Below are positions 1,600 through 17,537 of a stretch of 37,677 nucleotides of DNA, in pieces. This DNA comes from Candidatus Hydrogenedentota bacterium (GTDB lineage Bacteria; Hydrogenedentota; Hydrogenedentia; Hydrogenedentales; SLHB01), in contig JACRLJ010000057.1 of NCBI GenBank assembly GCA_016215105.1, positions 1-37,677 on the forward strand, given 5' to 3'. The number at the start of each line of letters is the position of its first letter. Positions within the stretch are counted from its first letter, which is position 1. The notes beneath the pieces were generated by a model. That model was given only the letters and a program-made list of their open reading frames with translations. It searched no databases and was not told the origin of the DNA. A program made the translations under genes and the position numbers.

Positions 1600-2185
1600 G
1601 CTTGGCCCGTCGCGGCGAACGACGAGAAAAGGCTGTTGAATGAGACTCTTGAACACGATCAGGGATTCAGGTCTTGCTTCCGCCACCGTTTCTGGGCAGG
1701 AGCCAGATCCTGTGTCGATAGGTTCATTGCAGCACAGGATAGGTCTCTTGTCCTCGTTCCCAAGTTGCACTTGGGAACGCACGTGCTCAAAAAGCTGCGC
1801 TTTGATTTGCCGTCGCCTTACCCGCTCCCGGCGCTACGTTACAACTCCGTGTGCGCCATTGGCTTAACCCCCGGCGCCCCTTGTTTCGAAAACCGCCCAA
1901 AACCCCTCTCAGCACAGCCCCAAGCCGAAACAGATGCCCTATAGTATAGAGGGGTCTTCCGGATCGCCCGGCAACACCCCCTCCGCGACCCGCCGCGCCC
2001 TTCGCGCGGTAAAGACGCTTTGGACTCCGTCTCGGCCACGCCCGGCGCCACATCAAGGAAACCGTCGAACAGTCCCATTTCCCGGATCGGCTTGACTACA
2101 CCAAGGCCGAGCGGCGAGAATCGCCCTGGCCGCTGGAGGGCGTCACTGTGGCCCTAGGCTTAGTTGAATGCACCTACTGTAGTAA
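1600..2185. other. Intergenic region with palindrome and possible coding relics
   Basis: No convincing gene was found. The stretch contains an 11-bp perfect hairpin (1755-1779) and a C-rich section around 1860-2010. Positions 2013-2189 are open without an ATG, and this frame ends in a TGA overlapping the ATG at 2186. It could be the tail of a decayed gene, but the translated sequence matches no family I recognise. Confidence 0.5.
1755..1779. repeat. Palindromic intergenic repeat (11-bp stem, TGC loop)
   Basis: CGTTCCCAAGT and ACTTGGGAACG form a perfect inverted repeat around a three-base loop TGC. Translated, such elements give spurious peptides of the type VPKLHLGT, which I recognise as common over-annotated ORFs in genomes rich in REP-like palindromes. 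One copy is seen here. It may be a REP-type element or a transcription attenuator; no T-run follows, so a terminator is unlikely. Confidence 0.7.
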
Positions 2186-2509
2186 ATGAGAATTGAAGCA
2201 CCTGAAATGAGCACGGAGACCAAGCGAAAAACGGGGACTGACTCGCTTTTCGGCAGTTTGAAAAACGTGTCTGTCCCTGCTTTTCGCGGCATTCGCGTCC
2301 AAGCACAAGACTCCGTCAGCACGACTCACCACACATACAACGCAGCGGAAAACGTAACCGTTATCAACGGGCGTCTCGCCAGAGTCGGTGGGCTCGGCGG
2401 AGCTGGTTTTGTGGACTCGGTCATGGGAGGAGCGGTCAAGCATGTCTATGATGAATACGTTGATCAGATGATGGGGCCTGACCCAGGATACAGTTGCTGG
2501 CCATGGTAA
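2186..2509 (+). CDS. Small protein of unknown function (107 aa)
   Basis: I do not recognise this protein. Its N-terminal half is polar (MSTETKRKTG and following). The middle is Thr/Val/Asn-rich, then comes a glycine-rich segment (GGLGGAGFVDSVMGGAV), and it ends YSCWPW. A second in-frame ATG at 2207 would give 100 residues and is an equally likely start; neither has a clear Shine-Dalgarno sequence. The next gene starts inside its last codons (ATG at 2503), which suggests translational coupling. Lying just upstream of an Rhs locus, it could be a small effector-like protein or the relic of an Rhs C-terminal tip, with the membrane gene after it as partner. That is inference from position only. 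Confidence 0.45.
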   Translation: MRIEAPEMSTETKRKTGTDSLFGSLKNVSVPAFRGIRVQAQDSVSTTHHTYNAAENVTVINGRLARVGGLGGAGFVDSVMGGAVKHVYDEYVDQMMGPDPGYSCWPW

Positions 2510-2889
2510 ATCGGTATGGTTTTGCGCTGCGGTTTCTCGAGCGACACGGACTGATGCTCGGGTATCAAGTGAAGAAGATGCCCGAGTTCAGATCGTTGCC
2601 TCGTCACGAGTACTTGAGGATGATCTCATGGTCAAGTGACCGATATCCGTCAGCTGCCTGGTGGCTGGAAGTGTGCGCCGCGCTAGCGTCACTCACGGTT
2701 TCTGTACCGCTGGCATTTATAGCAAGAGATGCGCTTGGCTGGGTTGTGATCAATGTGTTGACCGCACTGGCGATTGCCAGGAATCTGCGGATCTGGTATC
2801 TCAATTATCTTTACTTGACGACAGTGCTTCCGGGAACTCACGAGGGCGGCGAAGAAGGCAGCCACTCTCGTGAGGCGCCGATCGCGTGA
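2503..2889 (+). CDS. Small membrane protein of unknown function (128 aa)
   Basis: The reading frame is open from a TTG at 2494, but ATG 2503 is the better start and overlaps the end of the preceding small gene. The N-terminal ~50 residues are basic and soluble. Two hydrophobic segments follow, at about residues 50-75 (AAWWLEVCAALASLTVSVPL and on) and 80-100 (GWVVINVLTALAIA), and then a short polar tail. No family is recognised. Overlap with the gene before and a close second membrane gene after (2918) indicate a small operon of three. In Rhs and other polymorphic-toxin loci, two-pass membrane proteins of this size are often immunity proteins against membrane-acting toxins; that role is only a hypothesis here. 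Confidence 0.55.
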   Translation: MVNRYGFALRFLERHGLMLGYQVKKMPEFRSLPRHEYLRMISWSSDRYPSAAWWLEVCAALASLTVSVPLAFIARDALGWVVINVLTALAIARNLRIWYLNYLYLTTVLPGTHEGGEEGSHSREAPIA

Positions 2890-2917
2890 CCTCGCAACAT
2901 GTGATCGGACTTCGCGC

Positions 2918-3670
2918 ATGGTTGTAGAACTCCCGCAAACTACCGTTCTTCTCCTTCGGTTCTTTGCAGGCGCCGTTGCGGTGTTGTTCGGGGTATGCAC
3001 AATCGAAGGGCTCTGGAGTTGCGTTGATTTGAGCGCTCACGCATCCACGGAACCCCGGTTTTGGGTTAACTTGGCCAGTCTGCCTGTGGTCTTCCTATTG
3101 GGATGGGGCGGAATTGTGTTCGTGCTGTTCCACGCAAGGCGAAACGGGTGGTTTGCTGTGAGATTTGCGGTTTCTGAGACAGTGATTTCGCGCACGTTGC
3201 CGGACGGAACGTCCACCGAGGGCTCGTGGATGGATTTGGAGCGGGTGTCCCGCGCCGGACGTATTCTGCACTTCCGTGACGGCGCGAAGATAGCACTAGA
3301 GATATCAATGGCAGTTCCTTTGAGTGACTCGAAACTCAAGGCGATTCTGGCGTTTAGTGGCCGCGAGGAGGAGTTGACCCGTGTGCTCACGGCGCCGATA
3401 CGCAAGAACGTGATGACGACAAGGAAGGCCATCGTCCTCGCACTTAACGCAGTGCTACTGACAGTCTATATTTGCCGTCCCGCGCTTCCGAAGCTGGTGA
3501 CTATGTCGCGTAGCACGGAGGTGTTCGTTGCCGCCGCTTTGGGGTTGGCGCTGCTTGTTGGCATGTGCCTGGCCGCGTGGGTTCTATACGAAGGTCCCCT
3601 GGCAGATTACGAAGTAATGCCATTGGAGTCCAGCAGCAATCGGTCTCAGGACAACTGTGGCCAAACATAA
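2918..3670 (+). CDS. Membrane protein with a bacterial PH-like domain (250 aa)
   Basis: A GTG at 2870 would overlap the previous gene; ATG 2918 (MVVELPQTTVLLLR) gives a cleaner N-terminus with an immediate membrane segment, and I prefer it. There are about four hydrophobic segments, two near the N-terminus and two near the C-terminus. Between them lies a soluble region of about 110 residues whose strand pattern (RFAVSETVISRTLPDG, then SWMDLERVSRAGRILHFRDG) resembles YcxB-like/bacterial PH domains. Membrane helices flanking a PH-like fold are typical of small envelope proteins of unknown role. The gene follows the 128-aa membrane protein by 28 bases and stops three bases before the Rhs frame begins. 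The domain assignment is by pattern only; the function is unknown. Confidence 0.6.
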   Translation: MVVELPQTTVLLLRFFAGAVAVLFGVCTIEGLWSCVDLSAHASTEPRFWVNLASLPVVFLLGWGGIVFVLFHARRNGWFAVRFAVSETVISRTLPDGTSTEGSWMDLERVSRAGRILHFRDGAKIALEISMAVPLSDSKLKAILAFSGREEELTRVLTAPIRKNVMTTRKAIVLALNAVLLTVYICRPALPKLVTMSRSTEVFVAAALGLALLVGMCLAAWVLYEGPLADYEVMPLESSSNRSQDNCGQT

Positions 3671-3673
3671 CAG

Positions 3674-5014
3674 GTGGTGTATCCTACCTGGATGTGGCTG
3701 CGCCAGTTTGTCGGCGGGGTCATGACGGACTTCGGGACGTGGAGTAACACCAGTACGGCGGGATCGTGGTATGATTTGCGCATCGAGTGCGATGGGGCTA
3801 ACATCAATGTTTGGAAAGGCCCTAAAGGCGGGACAATGAGCCTGATCAAACAAGTTTCGACGTGTACCGTGACTACCTCGGACTCGCTGTGGTTCATTAC
3901 GGTGGACAGCCAGTGGAGTTTTGATAACATCCGGGTGCTATCCGATTCGCTGAGTTCGTCGGCGACGCTGGCGTATGACAATGCGAACGAGTTGACCTCG
4001 CGGACGGTGGACGGGTTGGCGACGGCGTATACGTATGACGATTCTGGCCGCATGACCGGGAAGACCATGGGGTCGTACACGGCCACCTACGGGTACAACT
4101 ACGGAGACAAGCTGACCTCGGTGACGAGCAATTTCCCGTGGGAGAGCGCGGTGACTTACGCCTACGGCGGGGACGGTAAACGCCGGTCGCGGACGGCGGG
4201 CGGGGTGACGGCGCAGTACAAGTGGGGCGCGGGCTTCGACCTCGTCAACGAAGAGACCAGCGCGGGCGCTTTGGCGCGGACCTACTATGGCCGCCTCGCC
4301 GACGTAGCCGGCACGGACCCGGCCACCGGCGCGTACCGCTACTACCACCACGACCACCTCGGCTCGACGCGCCGCGTGACCGACCAGTCCAAAGCCACCC
4401 TCGCCGCCTACGAATACACCCCCTACGGCGAAGACCTCTTCGCCTCTGGCCCCGCCGACGTGATGTACCGCTACGCGATGTTGGCAAGAGATAGCGCGAC
4501 GGGCCTCGATTTTGCGCCATTCCGCTACTACATGCCCGGCGCGGGCCGGTGGGCGTCGCGAGACCCGCTGGGGATGGTGGACGGGCCAAACGAATATGGT
4601 TACGGCATCGGCGCGCCGTCAATGTACTCCGATCCCACTGGAACGGTCGTGGAAACCATATGGGATATCGGGAACTTGTCGCTTGACGTAATCTGCGGGA
4701 ACTGGGGAGACGCGCTCTTTGATGGGGTTGCTGTGGCGATTCCTTTCCTTCCGGCTGGCGCAACTAAGCTGCCGAAATTCTTCAGGCCAAATTCGTTCCT
4801 GGGACGGATCTTCCACGAGAAAGGCGGTCTGGTCTATCCTGCGATTGCTTTCTACGACGAGGCAGGTGAGCAGTTGCTTCGAACAGACTGGGGGCCGGGG
4901 CACTGGGGTTTTGGTAAGGGCAGTACGCCTCACACTCACCTGAACCCGAACCTTCGACCTAATCAGGGACAAAAGACGTACATCGGGTCAATGTGGGACA
5001 AGCTATGTATCTAG
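3674..5014 (+). CDS. Rhs-repeat protein, 5'-truncated, with variable C-terminal toxin-like domain
   Basis: The frame opens at GTG 3674, three bases after the previous stop; ATG 3692 is another option. Neither gives a signal peptide or the long repeat shell of complete Rhs proteins, so this is a truncated or orphan copy. Residues ~1-95 resemble a fragment of a concanavalin/LamG-like domain (WYDLRIECDGANINVWKG, WSFDNIRVL). YD repeats follow (YTYDDSGRMTGKTMGSY), then the Rhs core: YHHDHLGSTRRVTD, YTPYGEDLF, FRYYMPGAGRWASRDPLG, and the closing SDPTG where the core ends. The last ~125 residues form a variable domain. It begins with a hydrophobic pre-toxin-like stretch (DALFDGVAVAIPFLPAGA) and ends with a His-rich section, HWGFGKGSTPHTHLNPN. 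I cannot assign that domain to a toxin family. A small candidate immunity gene follows 22 bases downstream. Confidence 0.85.
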   Translation: MVYPTWMWLRQFVGGVMTDFGTWSNTSTAGSWYDLRIECDGANINVWKGPKGGTMSLIKQVSTCTVTTSDSLWFITVDSQWSFDNIRVLSDSLSSSATLAYDNANELTSRTVDGLATAYTYDDSGRMTGKTMGSYTATYGYNYGDKLTSVTSNFPWESAVTYAYGGDGKRRSRTAGGVTAQYKWGAGFDLVNEETSAGALARTYYGRLADVAGTDPATGAYRYYHHDHLGSTRRVTDQSKATLAAYEYTPYGEDLFASGPADVMYRYAMLARDSATGLDFAPFRYYMPGAGRWASRDPLGMVDGPNEYGYGIGAPSMYSDPTGTVVETIWDIGNLSLDVICGNWGDALFDGVAVAIPFLPAGATKLPKFFRPNSFLGRIFHEKGGLVYPAIAFYDEAGEQLLRTDWGPGHWGFGKGSTPHTHLNPNLRPNQGQKTYIGSMWDKLCI

Positions 5015-14264: not shown

Positions 14265-17200
14265 ATGATCTCTGATGCAACGCTGATAGAGGAGAGCCTC
14301 TCGGGAAACACAAAGGCCTTTGGCGCCCTTGTCGAACGGCATAAACAACTTGCTTGCGCGTTGGCATACAGCGCGACGGGCGACCCGATTGCGAGCGAGG
14401 ACATTGCGCAACAGGCGTTTATTGTGGCGTGGCGCAATCTCACAAAGTTGGAAAGCCCGGGAAAACTGCGACCATGGCTCAGCGCAATCATTCGAAACGT
14501 TGCGGGGGATTGGCTGCGACGCCGGTCGAAAGAAGTTCAGCGGAGTGCGGCGCTCGATCAGGCGTCATTGATGAGCACATGGGAGACGCCGCGGGATGCG
14601 GCTATCACGCGGGAGCGCCAAGAGCTTACCTGGGAGGCGGTGAACGCGTTGCCGGAGGTGTATCGCGTTACGCTGGTGCTGTACTACCGCGAAGGCATGT
14701 CGGTCCAGAAGGTCGCGGAGGCGTTGCTGTTGACGCCGGACGCTACAAAGCAGCGCCTTGCGCGGGGCCGGGCCATGCTGCGCGAACGGCTTGAGGGCGT
14801 GGTGGAAGACACGCTTCGCAGGACGGGGCCGCGAGCGGGATTTGCAGTGGCCGTGCTGCGCGCCCTCCCGGCGGCGCCAACGGCGGCGGCGGGCGTCCCG
14901 AAACCGCTCTACACCGCGTGGCTGACCGGCGCTGGTGTGACTGCGGCGGCGGTGGCCGCCGTGGTGGTTCTGTCCACTGTGTCGGCGGGGGGGGGCCATC
15001 GCAGCAGTGTAGGCGCTGAACCCTCACCGGACGTGGCAGTATCGCCACAGGCAGTGGCAAATGACGAACCCGCGCAACCCGCGGCGGCCAGCGCGGAACT
15101 TGTTCCGGAACCTACGCCTGCGACCGATAAGTTTCCAGCGGCGCCGCCAGCGGAAGTCACTTCGGCGCTACCGCCCGCGTACGTGGCGCCCACAGGCTAC
15201 CCCGGGACAGATCAAGAATCCGCGCCGAGCGACGTGATCTCCGGCGTTGTGTATGGTGCGAGCGGAAAGACCATCGCAGGGGCAACGGTTTGGATATGTC
15301 GGCTGGGGGACGGCGCACGCGATACGCGCGAGGTGAAGACGGGGTTGGATGGTAAGTACACTATGCGGGTACCGCGAGGATCGTGGCGCCTGCGGGCGCG
15401 GATGAATGACGAGAGTGGGGCCGCGACGGTGTTCCACAGCAAGGGTGTGCTCTACGCGAATGGACAAGGCGATGAAATACGCAGAGAGATTCGTATGCAT
15501 CGGCAAGGCACTTTACGCGGTCTTGTCATGGAAAGAGAAAGTGGCCGCCCGATTGCAGGGGCGCAGGTGTGGACGGATGACGACTACCTGTTGACGACAG
15601 ATAACGATGGACGGTTTACTGCAGAAGGGCTCACTCCCGGGCCGCACTGCCTCTACGCGATGGCGCCGGGACGCGAGCGCCGCTATGTCCAGTATTGCAC
15701 GGCGTTTGATTCGACCGGCGATCTAGAGATAAGTCTCGGCAAAGCAGAGAAAGTGCGTGGGCGTGTTGTTACTCCGGAAGGCCGGCCTGTAGCGTTTGCG
15801 TGGGTTTTCCGGCCGGCGTCGTTGTGGGGCGCGGGCAACGCGCGGTACGAAGTCTGCGACGAACAAGGCCGCTTCACGTTTGACGGTATCCCCGCAGGGA
15901 AAGAACGTCCCTTGAACGCGCGCGTGCCCGCGTACTACGGGATCTGCGGCGACCCGTATCCGGAGTGGAAGAAGGCGGGGGTCTATGAAAGCAAGAGCAT
16001 CGATGTCCGGGAGGGCGAACCGGCGCCCGTGGTTACGTTTGTGCTGCGTCCGGAGCCGGTGGACGAGCAGGTAAGCCGAGAGGACTGGAAAGATGTGGCG
16101 CCGACCGGCGCCGTGTGCGGAACGGCGCTCAGCGACTACGGCAAGCCGATGCGCAACTTCCGGGTGATGCTGCAACATCCGCACGCAGCGGGTATTGCAT
16201 CCGACCAGTGCAACGCCCTGGAAATTAACTCGCCGGAGAAAGGTTTCTCTTTCACTTCCGAGGATGGGACTTTTCGTCTGACGACGTACGATCTCGTGCC
16301 GGGCAAGTTCGTACGCCTGGTAACAACCGCGGATGGTTGCGGCGAATCGGCGCATGACGTTGTCGTTGTGAGGCCGGTCGGCGCGCACGGCGACCCGTCG
16401 CAGTTGATATTCCGCATCCCGAAGTCGCACGACCTGACCATTCGGGTGGTTGATACGATCGGAGCGCCGCTGGCGGCGGGTGTTCAATTGCTGGATCCGC
16501 TGGTCTTGCAACAGCACCGAGAGTGGTTCAACGGCAAGCTGACCGGCGTGCGCGCGAAGGAAGCGGACACCGACTCCGCAGGTGTTGTACGGTTCGAAGA
16601 CTTTGCGCTATCAGAAGGCGACATCACCGCGGAAAAGAGCGGCTATGCTTCCGCGCGCGTAACGTGGTCAGGGGAGCCGGAAGTAAGGATACAGATGCAA
16701 CAGGCGTGCGTCGTGGAAGGCATCCTCAACGACGAATCGCACCATCCGTTGGAAGAAGCAGTGGTGGCGCTGAAGCGAACGAATGCGCCGGTGTGGGACT
16801 ACCGTTCCGCGGAGGACGATACGTATCAGCGCGTGGTTGCTCCAAGCGACCATGGATGCGTTCAAATCGCCAATCTCGCGCCGGGCCGATACGAACTGAC
16901 AATTTACGGGCCGCACGAATTGATGCAATGGGGAATCGACGCAAAGGGCAAGCCCGTGAAGGGGTATCCGGCGGATTCGCGAATCTTCTATCAGCAGATC
17001 GACCTGGTGGCGGGACAGACCTACAAATTCAAGTGTCCGGATGACTCGGCGCATCTCAGTCCAGCGGCATGGTCTGCACGGGGAGACGGCGAAACCGGCG
17101 ACGACACGCCTTCGCCAATTGTCGGCGCTTGGATGGCCAGCAGGGTGTCTCAGTCGGGAACTGTCTCCTACACCATCATCAACTATGGGAAGGATGGCAA

Positions 17201-17537
17201 TTACGTTACGCGCTCGATGACGTCAGGGGCGCAACCCTTTGTGCAAACGGGGCATTTCAGAATCGCCGATGGGGTGTTGAGCCAATTGTCCGATCGCGCA
17301 GACGTGTCGAACTGTGAGTACACGGTTTCGCCGGATGGAACCGCGTTGACACTCCGGGAGGTCGGTTCGGAGCAAGCGGTGGCATACCAGCGGCGGCAGA
17401 GTCTGGAATCAGCGCTGGCATATGTTGAGTCACAAGTGGGACCACCGCCGCCGCTGCCCTACACGCCGCTCGAACCGAGGCCGATTCCCAACACGTCGCG
17501 AGGCACGGCGACATTCATTCCCGGGGAAGAAGACTAG
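14265..17537 (+). CDS. ECF sigma factor fused to a membrane anchor and carboxypeptidase-regulatory-like repeats
   Basis: ATG 14265 with GGAG (14254-14257, seven-base spacing) gives 1090 residues; upstream open codons are ignored. Residues 22-88 are sigma region 2 (AFGALVERHKQLACALAYSA, ASEDIAQQAFIVAWRNL, WLSAIIRNVAGDWLRRR). Residues 121-174 are sigma region 4 (ALPEVYRVTLVLYYREGMSV, VAEALLLTPDATKQRLARGR). A single membrane helix lies at 219-240. A Pro/Ala-rich linker (245-320) and several carboxypeptidase-D regulatory-like beta units follow, beginning near 324 (SGVVYGASGKTIAGATVWI), 415 (LRGLVMERESGRPIAGAQVW), 497 (VRGRVVTPEGRPVAFAWVF) and further on. A C-terminal beta domain (about 949-1044) starts with IVGAWMASR. 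The likely topology puts the sigma part in the cytoplasm and the repeats outside, suggesting a one-piece sensor and transcription switch. No anti-sigma gene is adjacent. Confidence 0.85.
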   Translation: MISDATLIEESLSGNTKAFGALVERHKQLACALAYSATGDPIASEDIAQQAFIVAWRNLTKLESPGKLRPWLSAIIRNVAGDWLRRRSKEVQRSAALDQASLMSTWETPRDAAITRERQELTWEAVNALPEVYRVTLVLYYREGMSVQKVAEALLLTPDATKQRLARGRAMLRERLEGVVEDTLRRTGPRAGFAVAVLRALPAAPTAAAGVPKPLYTAWLTGAGVTAAAVAAVVVLSTVSAGGGHRSSVGAEPSPDVAVSPQAVANDEPAQPAAASAELVPEPTPATDKFPAAPPAEVTSALPPAYVAPTGYPGTDQESAPSDVISGVVYGASGKTIAGATVWICRLGDGARDTREVKTGLDGKYTMRVPRGSWRLRARMNDESGAATVFHSKGVLYANGQGDEIRREIRMHRQGTLRGLVMERESGRPIAGAQVWTDDDYLLTTDNDGRFTAEGLTPGPHCLYAMAPGRERRYVQYCTAFDSTGDLEISLGKAEKVRGRVVTPEGRPVAFAWVFRPASLWGAGNARYEVCDEQGRFTFDGIPAGKERPLNARVPAYYGICGDPYPEWKKAGVYESKSIDVREGEPAPVVTFVLRPEPVDEQVSREDWKDVAPTGAVCGTALSDYGKPMRNFRVMLQHPHAAGIASDQCNALEINSPEKGFSFTSEDGTFRLTTYDLVPGKFVRLVTTADGCGESAHDVVVVRPVGAHGDPSQLIFRIPKSHDLTIRVVDTIGAPLAAGVQLLDPLVLQQHREWFNGKLTGVRAKEADTDSAGVVRFEDFALSEGDITAEKSGYASARVTWSGEPEVRIQMQQACVVEGILNDESHHPLEEAVVALKRTNAPVWDYRSAEDDTYQRVVAPSDHGCVQIANLAPGRYELTIYGPHELMQWGIDAKGKPVKGYPADSRIFYQQIDLVAGQTYKFKCPDDSAHLSPAAWSARGDGETGDDTPSPIVGAWMASRVSQSGTVSYTIINYGKDGNYVTRSMTSGAQPFVQTGHFRIADGVLSQLSDRADVSNCEYTVSPDGTALTLREVGSEQAVAYQRRQSLESALAYVESQVGPPPPLPYTPLEPRPIPNTSRGTATFIPGEED
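14987..14995 (+). repeat. Nine-G homopolymer inside the sigma-fusion gene
   Basis: Nine consecutive G bases encode Gly242-Gly244, immediately after the membrane helix. A one-base slip would leave the sigma and anchor parts intact but lose the whole extracytoplasmic part. The tract is a candidate phase-variation site, or a spot prone to sequencing error. Confidence 0.8.

Follow-up and report, generated by a model that had tools for sequence, protein, structure and literature searches.

A predicted membrane-tethered ECF sigma factor of Hydrogenedentota with a CarbD ectodomain and a conserved motif behind sigma region 4

A short motif directly behind sigma-70 region 4 (sigma4) is shared by membrane-fused ECF sigma factors across phyla, and the tails that stand behind it are modular. 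This is the main new point to come from the analysis of one gene of a Candidatus Hydrogenedentota bacterium. The gene lies in a stretch of 37,677 nucleotides (contig JACRLJ010000057.1 of assembly GCA_016215105.1), referred to here as the window. Its product combines an ECF sigma factor, the motif, a predicted membrane-spanning segment and a long series of carboxypeptidase-regulatory-like (CarbD) repeats in a single chain, and is a candidate one-protein signalling system.

Anatomy of the protein

The reading frame contains no internal stops, and its ATG is backed by a Shine-Dalgarno-like sequence (table 1). Sigma regions 2 and 4 are present and regions 1 and 3 are absent, which is the arrangement of ECF (group 4) sigma factors. 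The protein scores well over the cut-off of the ECF model TIGR02937 and reaches none of the named equivalogs. The best Foldseek matches of the sigma part are SigE, SigW, RpoE and AlgU. Three quarters of the protein length belong to the ectodomain, where Pfam places CarboxypepD_reg on four stretches (9e-30) and a hidden Markov model (HMM) built from this lineage recognizes at least five CarbD repeats between residues 325 and 879. Pfam and PDB sequence searches returned no match for the beta-rich domain within the last 140 residues. The domain order given in a preliminary description of the gene (sigma regions 2 and 4, one helix, CarbD repeats and a terminal beta domain) is borne out. Elsewhere in the window, a 446-aa reading frame (3674–5014, + strand) has a sub-threshold match to RHS repeats (0.0018).

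Table 1. Coordinates of the gene and its predicted features in the window, with the related proteins of the same genome.
Feature	Residues	Position	Strand	Basis
Shine-Dalgarno-like GGAGAA		14254–14259	+	sequence; ATG 5 nt downstream
Whole ORF, membrane-tethered ECF sigma factor (predicted)	1–1090 (1090 aa)	14265–17537	+	ORF and Pfam
Sigma-70 region 2	22–89	14328–14531	+	PF04542, 2.2e-14
Sigma-70 region 4	123–172	14631–14780	+	PF08281 (Sigma70_r4_2), 6.2e-9; Foldseek to ECF sigmas
Conserved post-sigma4 motif VEDTLRRTGPRAGFAVAVLRALP	180–202	14802–14870	+	54-sequence alignment; helix 193–200, pLDDT ~96
Single predicted membrane-spanning segment	~215–241	14907–14987	+	hydropathy and insertion energy
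Pro/Ala-rich stalk, predicted extracytoplasmic, candidate site-1 cleavage zone	242–324 (83)	14988–15236	+	composition; counterparts in relatives
CarbD repeat 1	325–379	15237–15401	+	lineage-specific HMM
CarbD repeat 2	417–476	15513–15692	+	lineage-specific HMM; best PF13620 stretch
CarbD repeat 3	497–556	15753–15932	+	lineage-specific HMM
CarbD repeat 4	727–799	16443–16661	+	lineage-specific HMM
CarbD repeat 5	817–879	16713–16901	+	lineage-specific HMM; PF14686 at 852–883
Terminal beta-rich domain	~953–1055	17121–17429	+	kept in SJ408 orthologue; no database match
Sigma-TM-CarbD set of the same genome: this gene, L050, L052, L055, L056 (two), L058, L060 (two), L062, L063, L064				
Further members of the set: L172, L173				added by reading the sequence

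AlphaFold2 renders residues 213–242 as low-confidence coil and builds no membrane helix, so the case for the helix is built on its hydrophobicity and on conservation in the family. The Kyte–Doolittle mean is 2.01 at residues 223–241; when the C-terminal extension was shuffled, 0.75% of the shuffled sequences reached this value. The apparent insertion energy is −0.5 kcal/mol for residues 215–239, whereas the best-scoring segments of the sigma domain and the ectodomain have +4.4 and +3.2, respectively. For the corresponding segment of the CarbD fusions that were tested, the median is −0.3, compared with +3.5 for their sigma domains. The controls of this calculation behaved as they should. The segment scores as inserting, and the earlier concern that it might not do so finds no support. 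The positive-inside bias is weak (66 K/R inside versus 60 outside in 30 fusions). Given this bias and the modelled coil, we infer the topology, with good support from the sequence, as a single N-in/C-out helix with the CarbD repeats outside. Full-length AlphaFold2 modelling had too shallow an alignment (five rows, mean pLDDT 39.5).

The stalk that follows contains 19% Pro, against 7% across the remaining ectodomain. It has counterparts in 29 other CarbD-bearing fusions, and across all 30 the median stalk length is 74.5 residues, with 13% Pro compared with 6% in the ectodomains. The stalk studied here would be a natural target for a site-1 protease.

An orthologue with identical domain order is found in an independent genome, Ca. 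Hydrogenedentota SJ408 (48–51% identity). One contig carries the part matching residues 1–491 (50–51%), which spans the sigma4-TM-CarbD junction. A second contig ends with the C-terminal half (48% over residues 452–1084), terminal domain included. The preliminary description had named a sequencing error joining two genes as a possible refutation. The genome is indeed fragmented (171 contigs), but the junction recurs within one reading frame at 50% identity in SJ408, and the genome of the gene has no fewer than 13 other in-frame sigma-TM-CarbD fusions. An artefact of assembly or sequencing has a negligible probability; it is ruled out by the conserved orthologue, and the gene is a real single gene. 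Just upstream of the orthologue, SJ408 carries a second sigma-TM-CarbD gene of a different sigma lineage (L090, 1622–4825, + strand, 1067 aa).

A conserved motif behind sigma region 4

The 23 residues after sigma4 have the consensus V-E-x2-L-x2-T-x-P-x3-F-T-x2-V-L-A-A-L-P. In an alignment of 54 sequences their conservation equals that of the sigma4 helix-turn-helix. Near-invariant positions are P189 (54/54), F193 (53/54) and, each in 52/54, E181, L184 and V197; a variable Ala/Gly-rich stretch comes next. AlphaFold2, run on this alignment, models sigma2, sigma4 and, with a pLDDT of ~96, the helix of the motif, followed by disorder.

When 84,980 species genomes were scanned, the best 80 matches fell on 77 loci. 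These are spread over Hydrogenedentota, Verrucomicrobiota, Planctomycetota and, in a few cases, Gammaproteobacteria (Alteromonas, Pinirhizobacter), groups across which the motif is conserved. The matching reading frames have membrane tails, mostly with 4–7 predicted helices, and CarbD repeats in a minority; what stands behind the motif may be a CarbD, an LRR-like or a polytopic tail. In 62 genomes of the phylum, 81 reading frames of at least 450 aa were listed, and in 61 of them the match extends at least as far as residue 198; among 58 shorter than 300 aa, it does so in 1. Short sigma factors mostly stop at sigma4, and the motif therefore accompanies the membrane tail. The motif also occurs in polytopic sigma fusions (L154; L156, 6016–7569; L108, 5971–7590) of Alteromonas alba, an Alteromonadaceae MAG and Pinirhizobacter soli, which may be open to laboratory tests. 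Another genome of the Hydrogenedentota (G016) has four sigma-TM proteins in two neighbouring pairs (L071 and L072), which keep the motif and carry ectodomains that read as LRR-like.

The helix behind sigma4 appears to be the best candidate for an element that keeps the tethered sigma factor off, or that is recognized during processing. A tentative extension, for which the chances are clearly below even, is that the motif acts as a minimal cis-acting anti-sigma lock, and that sigma factor, lock and membrane segment may form a modular cassette that has been joined to CarbD, LRR-like and polytopic ectodomains in several phyla.

Fusions in the genome and the order

The 6.7 Mb genome has 47 matches to sigma-70 region 2, one of them RpoD-like. 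At least 14 of the 47 are sigma-TM-CarbD proteins (table 1). Of 60 genomes sampled across the order, at least 29 contain fused reading frames of at least 700 aa. The length and layout of the protein had been called uncommon, which does not apply to this lineage; relatives with the same order of domains, which the preliminary description had proposed to look for, are the SJ408 orthologue and the further fusions of the same genome. A quick tree of sigma domains requires the CarbD label to change 10 times, and well-supported branches force at least seven of these changes. Several sigma lineages have thus gained or lost an ectodomain of the CarbD type. Among the plasmid matches listed, similarity is confined to the sigma domain and covers at most 17% of the query. 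A search of openly available literature found no description of ECF-CarbD fusions or of Hydrogenedentota sigma factors; the main ECF classification may already group them.

Further sigma factors of this genome have other fusion partners: a kinase, a polytopic domain, an STN domain, DUF3738 or a tRNA-synthetase-like domain. One ECF sigma factor is joined directly to a Ser/Thr kinase and a FliG_C-like domain (L053, 566–2188, + strand). In a near relative (L006, 1474–3155, + strand), sigma factor (1474–2076) and kinase-like reading frame (2091–3155) are separate and adjacent. In a further ECF sigma factor, the partner is a class II tRNA synthetase core domain of PheS type (L057, 463–1809, + strand; PF01409, 6.8e-29). 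Another is followed by a membrane segment and an STN (secretin/TonB N-terminus) domain (L065, 514–2637, + strand), and is possibly closer to cell-surface signalling.

Comparison with known systems

ECF sigma factors with C-terminal extensions are already known, as the preliminary description states; tethered ones with extracytoplasmic extensions include IutY and groups ECF48, ECF52 and ECF53 (PMC8999054). IutY of P. putida (ECF243, a hybrid sigma/anti-sigma protein) resembles the CarbD protein, whose topology is predicted, in joining a cytosolic ECF sigma factor, one membrane segment and a periplasmic C-terminal domain in one chain. IutY is freed by Prc and then RseP: the large periplasmic part is removed ahead of site-2 cleavage, and RseP acts once ~50 periplasmic residues remain (PMC5411451). 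The two differ in that IutY has 374 aa, belongs to FecI/FecR-type cell-surface signalling and has an adjacent TonB-dependent receptor, whereas the CarbD protein has its repeats, the post-sigma4 motif and many paralogues. Its Pfam matches outside the sigma domain are to CarbD-type beta-sandwich families only; a FecR-like periplasmic domain is absent, and the adjacent genes are MatE and AlaDh/PNT in place of a TonB-dependent receptor.

Groups ECF48, ECF52 (SCO4117 of Streptomyces coelicolor) and ECF53 share with the CarbD protein an ECF sigma factor, a membrane segment and a proline-rich extracytoplasmic region; in the predicted topology, the CarbD protein likewise has a C-terminal domain behind its proline-rich stretch. 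ECF52 carries a proline-rich periplasmic stalk (PMC5826349) and an extracytoplasmic carbohydrate-binding domain, and release by proteolysis has been proposed for it (PMC5826349, PMC8999054) and for ECF48 and ECF53 (PMC8999054). These groups, described from Actinobacteria, have a zinc-finger domain between sigma4 and the membrane segment, whereas the CarbD protein has no zinc finger or recognizable anti-sigma domain and a different ectodomain. The CarbD protein therefore lies outside IutY/ECF243 and ECF52, whose defining features it lacks, and plausibly works most like them.

Among the best 80 matches, the closest sigma domains outside Hydrogenedentota belong to polytopic ECF fusions of Verrucomicrobiota and Planctomycetota (~540 aa, L093–L166). 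These share the motif but usually continue into 4–7 predicted membrane helices, against one helix and CarbD repeats here. The CadC/ToxR regulators have a comparable layout, with a DNA-directed output inside, one membrane segment and a sensor outside; their output is a DNA-binding activator, whereas that of the CarbD protein is a sigma factor that needs RNA polymerase.

Proposed mechanism and alternatives

No anti-sigma gene adjoins the sigma gene, and comparison with the SJ408 orthologue found no conserved gene neighbours, so that an operon partner is rejected. The linker between sigma4 and the helix has ~45 residues, which leaves little room for a classical anti-sigma domain. Pfam matches neither such a domain nor a zinc finger there, and residues 173–222 are free of Cys (Cys at 31, the next at 345). 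The genome encodes an S41 protease of the Ctp/Prc type and an RseP homologue that has the HExxH motif. As RseP and Prc are near-universal, finding them here lends weak support to proteolytic release.

The preliminary reasoning that a tethered sigma factor needs either proteolysis or local action at the membrane holds. We rate it slightly above an even chance that the protein is a one-protein transmembrane signalling system whose sigma factor would be freed by regulated intramembrane proteolysis, as for IutY. This reading draws on the domain order and membrane segment, a design kept in 30 fusions, the lack of an anti-sigma neighbour, the proteases, the motif and the IutY precedent. The proposed steps are as follows. 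(i) The N-terminal ECF sigma domain would be held at the inner membrane by the single N-in/C-out helix, with the post-sigma4 helix (180–202) packed onto it while tethered. (ii) The CarbD ectodomain and terminal beta domain, in the periplasm, may sense a ligand, a polymer or the state of the envelope. (iii) On a signal, a site-1 protease would gain access to the disordered Pro/Ala-rich stalk, and its cut would leave only a short stub in the periplasm. (iv) An RseP-type site-2 protease would then cut within or near the helix. (v) The freed sigma-plus-motif fragment would join RNA polymerase.

The sigma factor might instead act while anchored: a ligand or clustering of the ectodomain would lift inhibition across the membrane, and RNA polymerase would be recruited to promoters there, in the manner of CadC/ToxR. 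A single helix with a large ectodomain fits that layout too, we know of no usable sequence consensus for site-2 cleavage and hence of no cleavage signature, and the confidently folded helix behind sigma4 could be an allosteric lock released without cutting. We nevertheless consider anchored action unlikely. A sigma factor must bind core polymerase and initiate at many promoters, and the conserved disordered stalk suits shedding. IutY, the only characterized tethered ECF sigma factor, is freed by proteolysis (PMC5411451), and ToxR and CadC themselves undergo proteolysis (PMC7593790). It is somewhat less probable still that the sigma factor is restrained through the motif by a second protein encoded far away (an outer-membrane receptor, a soluble anti-sigma factor or a kinase), the ectodomain mainly anchoring or docking. 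In favour of this, the conserved motif resembles an interaction surface, a classical anti-sigma domain would not fit into so short a linker, and related sigma factors of the genome are fused to, or stand beside, Ser/Thr kinases (L053, L006). Against this, the neighbouring gene is not conserved, and very different tails stand behind the sigma-plus-motif module, so no single partner is implied.

Structural and adhesive proteins commonly carry CarbD repeats, and the ectodomain dominates the chain, which could suggest a membrane-anchored surface or adhesion protein with a vestigial sigma domain. This is very improbable: regions 2 and 4 exceed the Pfam cut-offs, the residues invariant in 54 relatives are retained, and the sigma part (1–204) is 66% identical to the SJ408 orthologue, against 48% for the ectodomain.

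Significance

Transmembrane control of ECF sigma factors normally requires a separate anti-sigma protein. A lineage with at least 14 single-chain versions in one genome, in which a short invariant motif would replace the anti-sigma domain, offers a simple place to study how a tethered sigma factor is held off and freed. The swapping of ectodomains gives a chance to see new sensors wired to transcription. If the motif is indeed a cis-acting lock, these proteins would form a family of single-protein 'sigma receptors' that work without separate anti-sigma factors.
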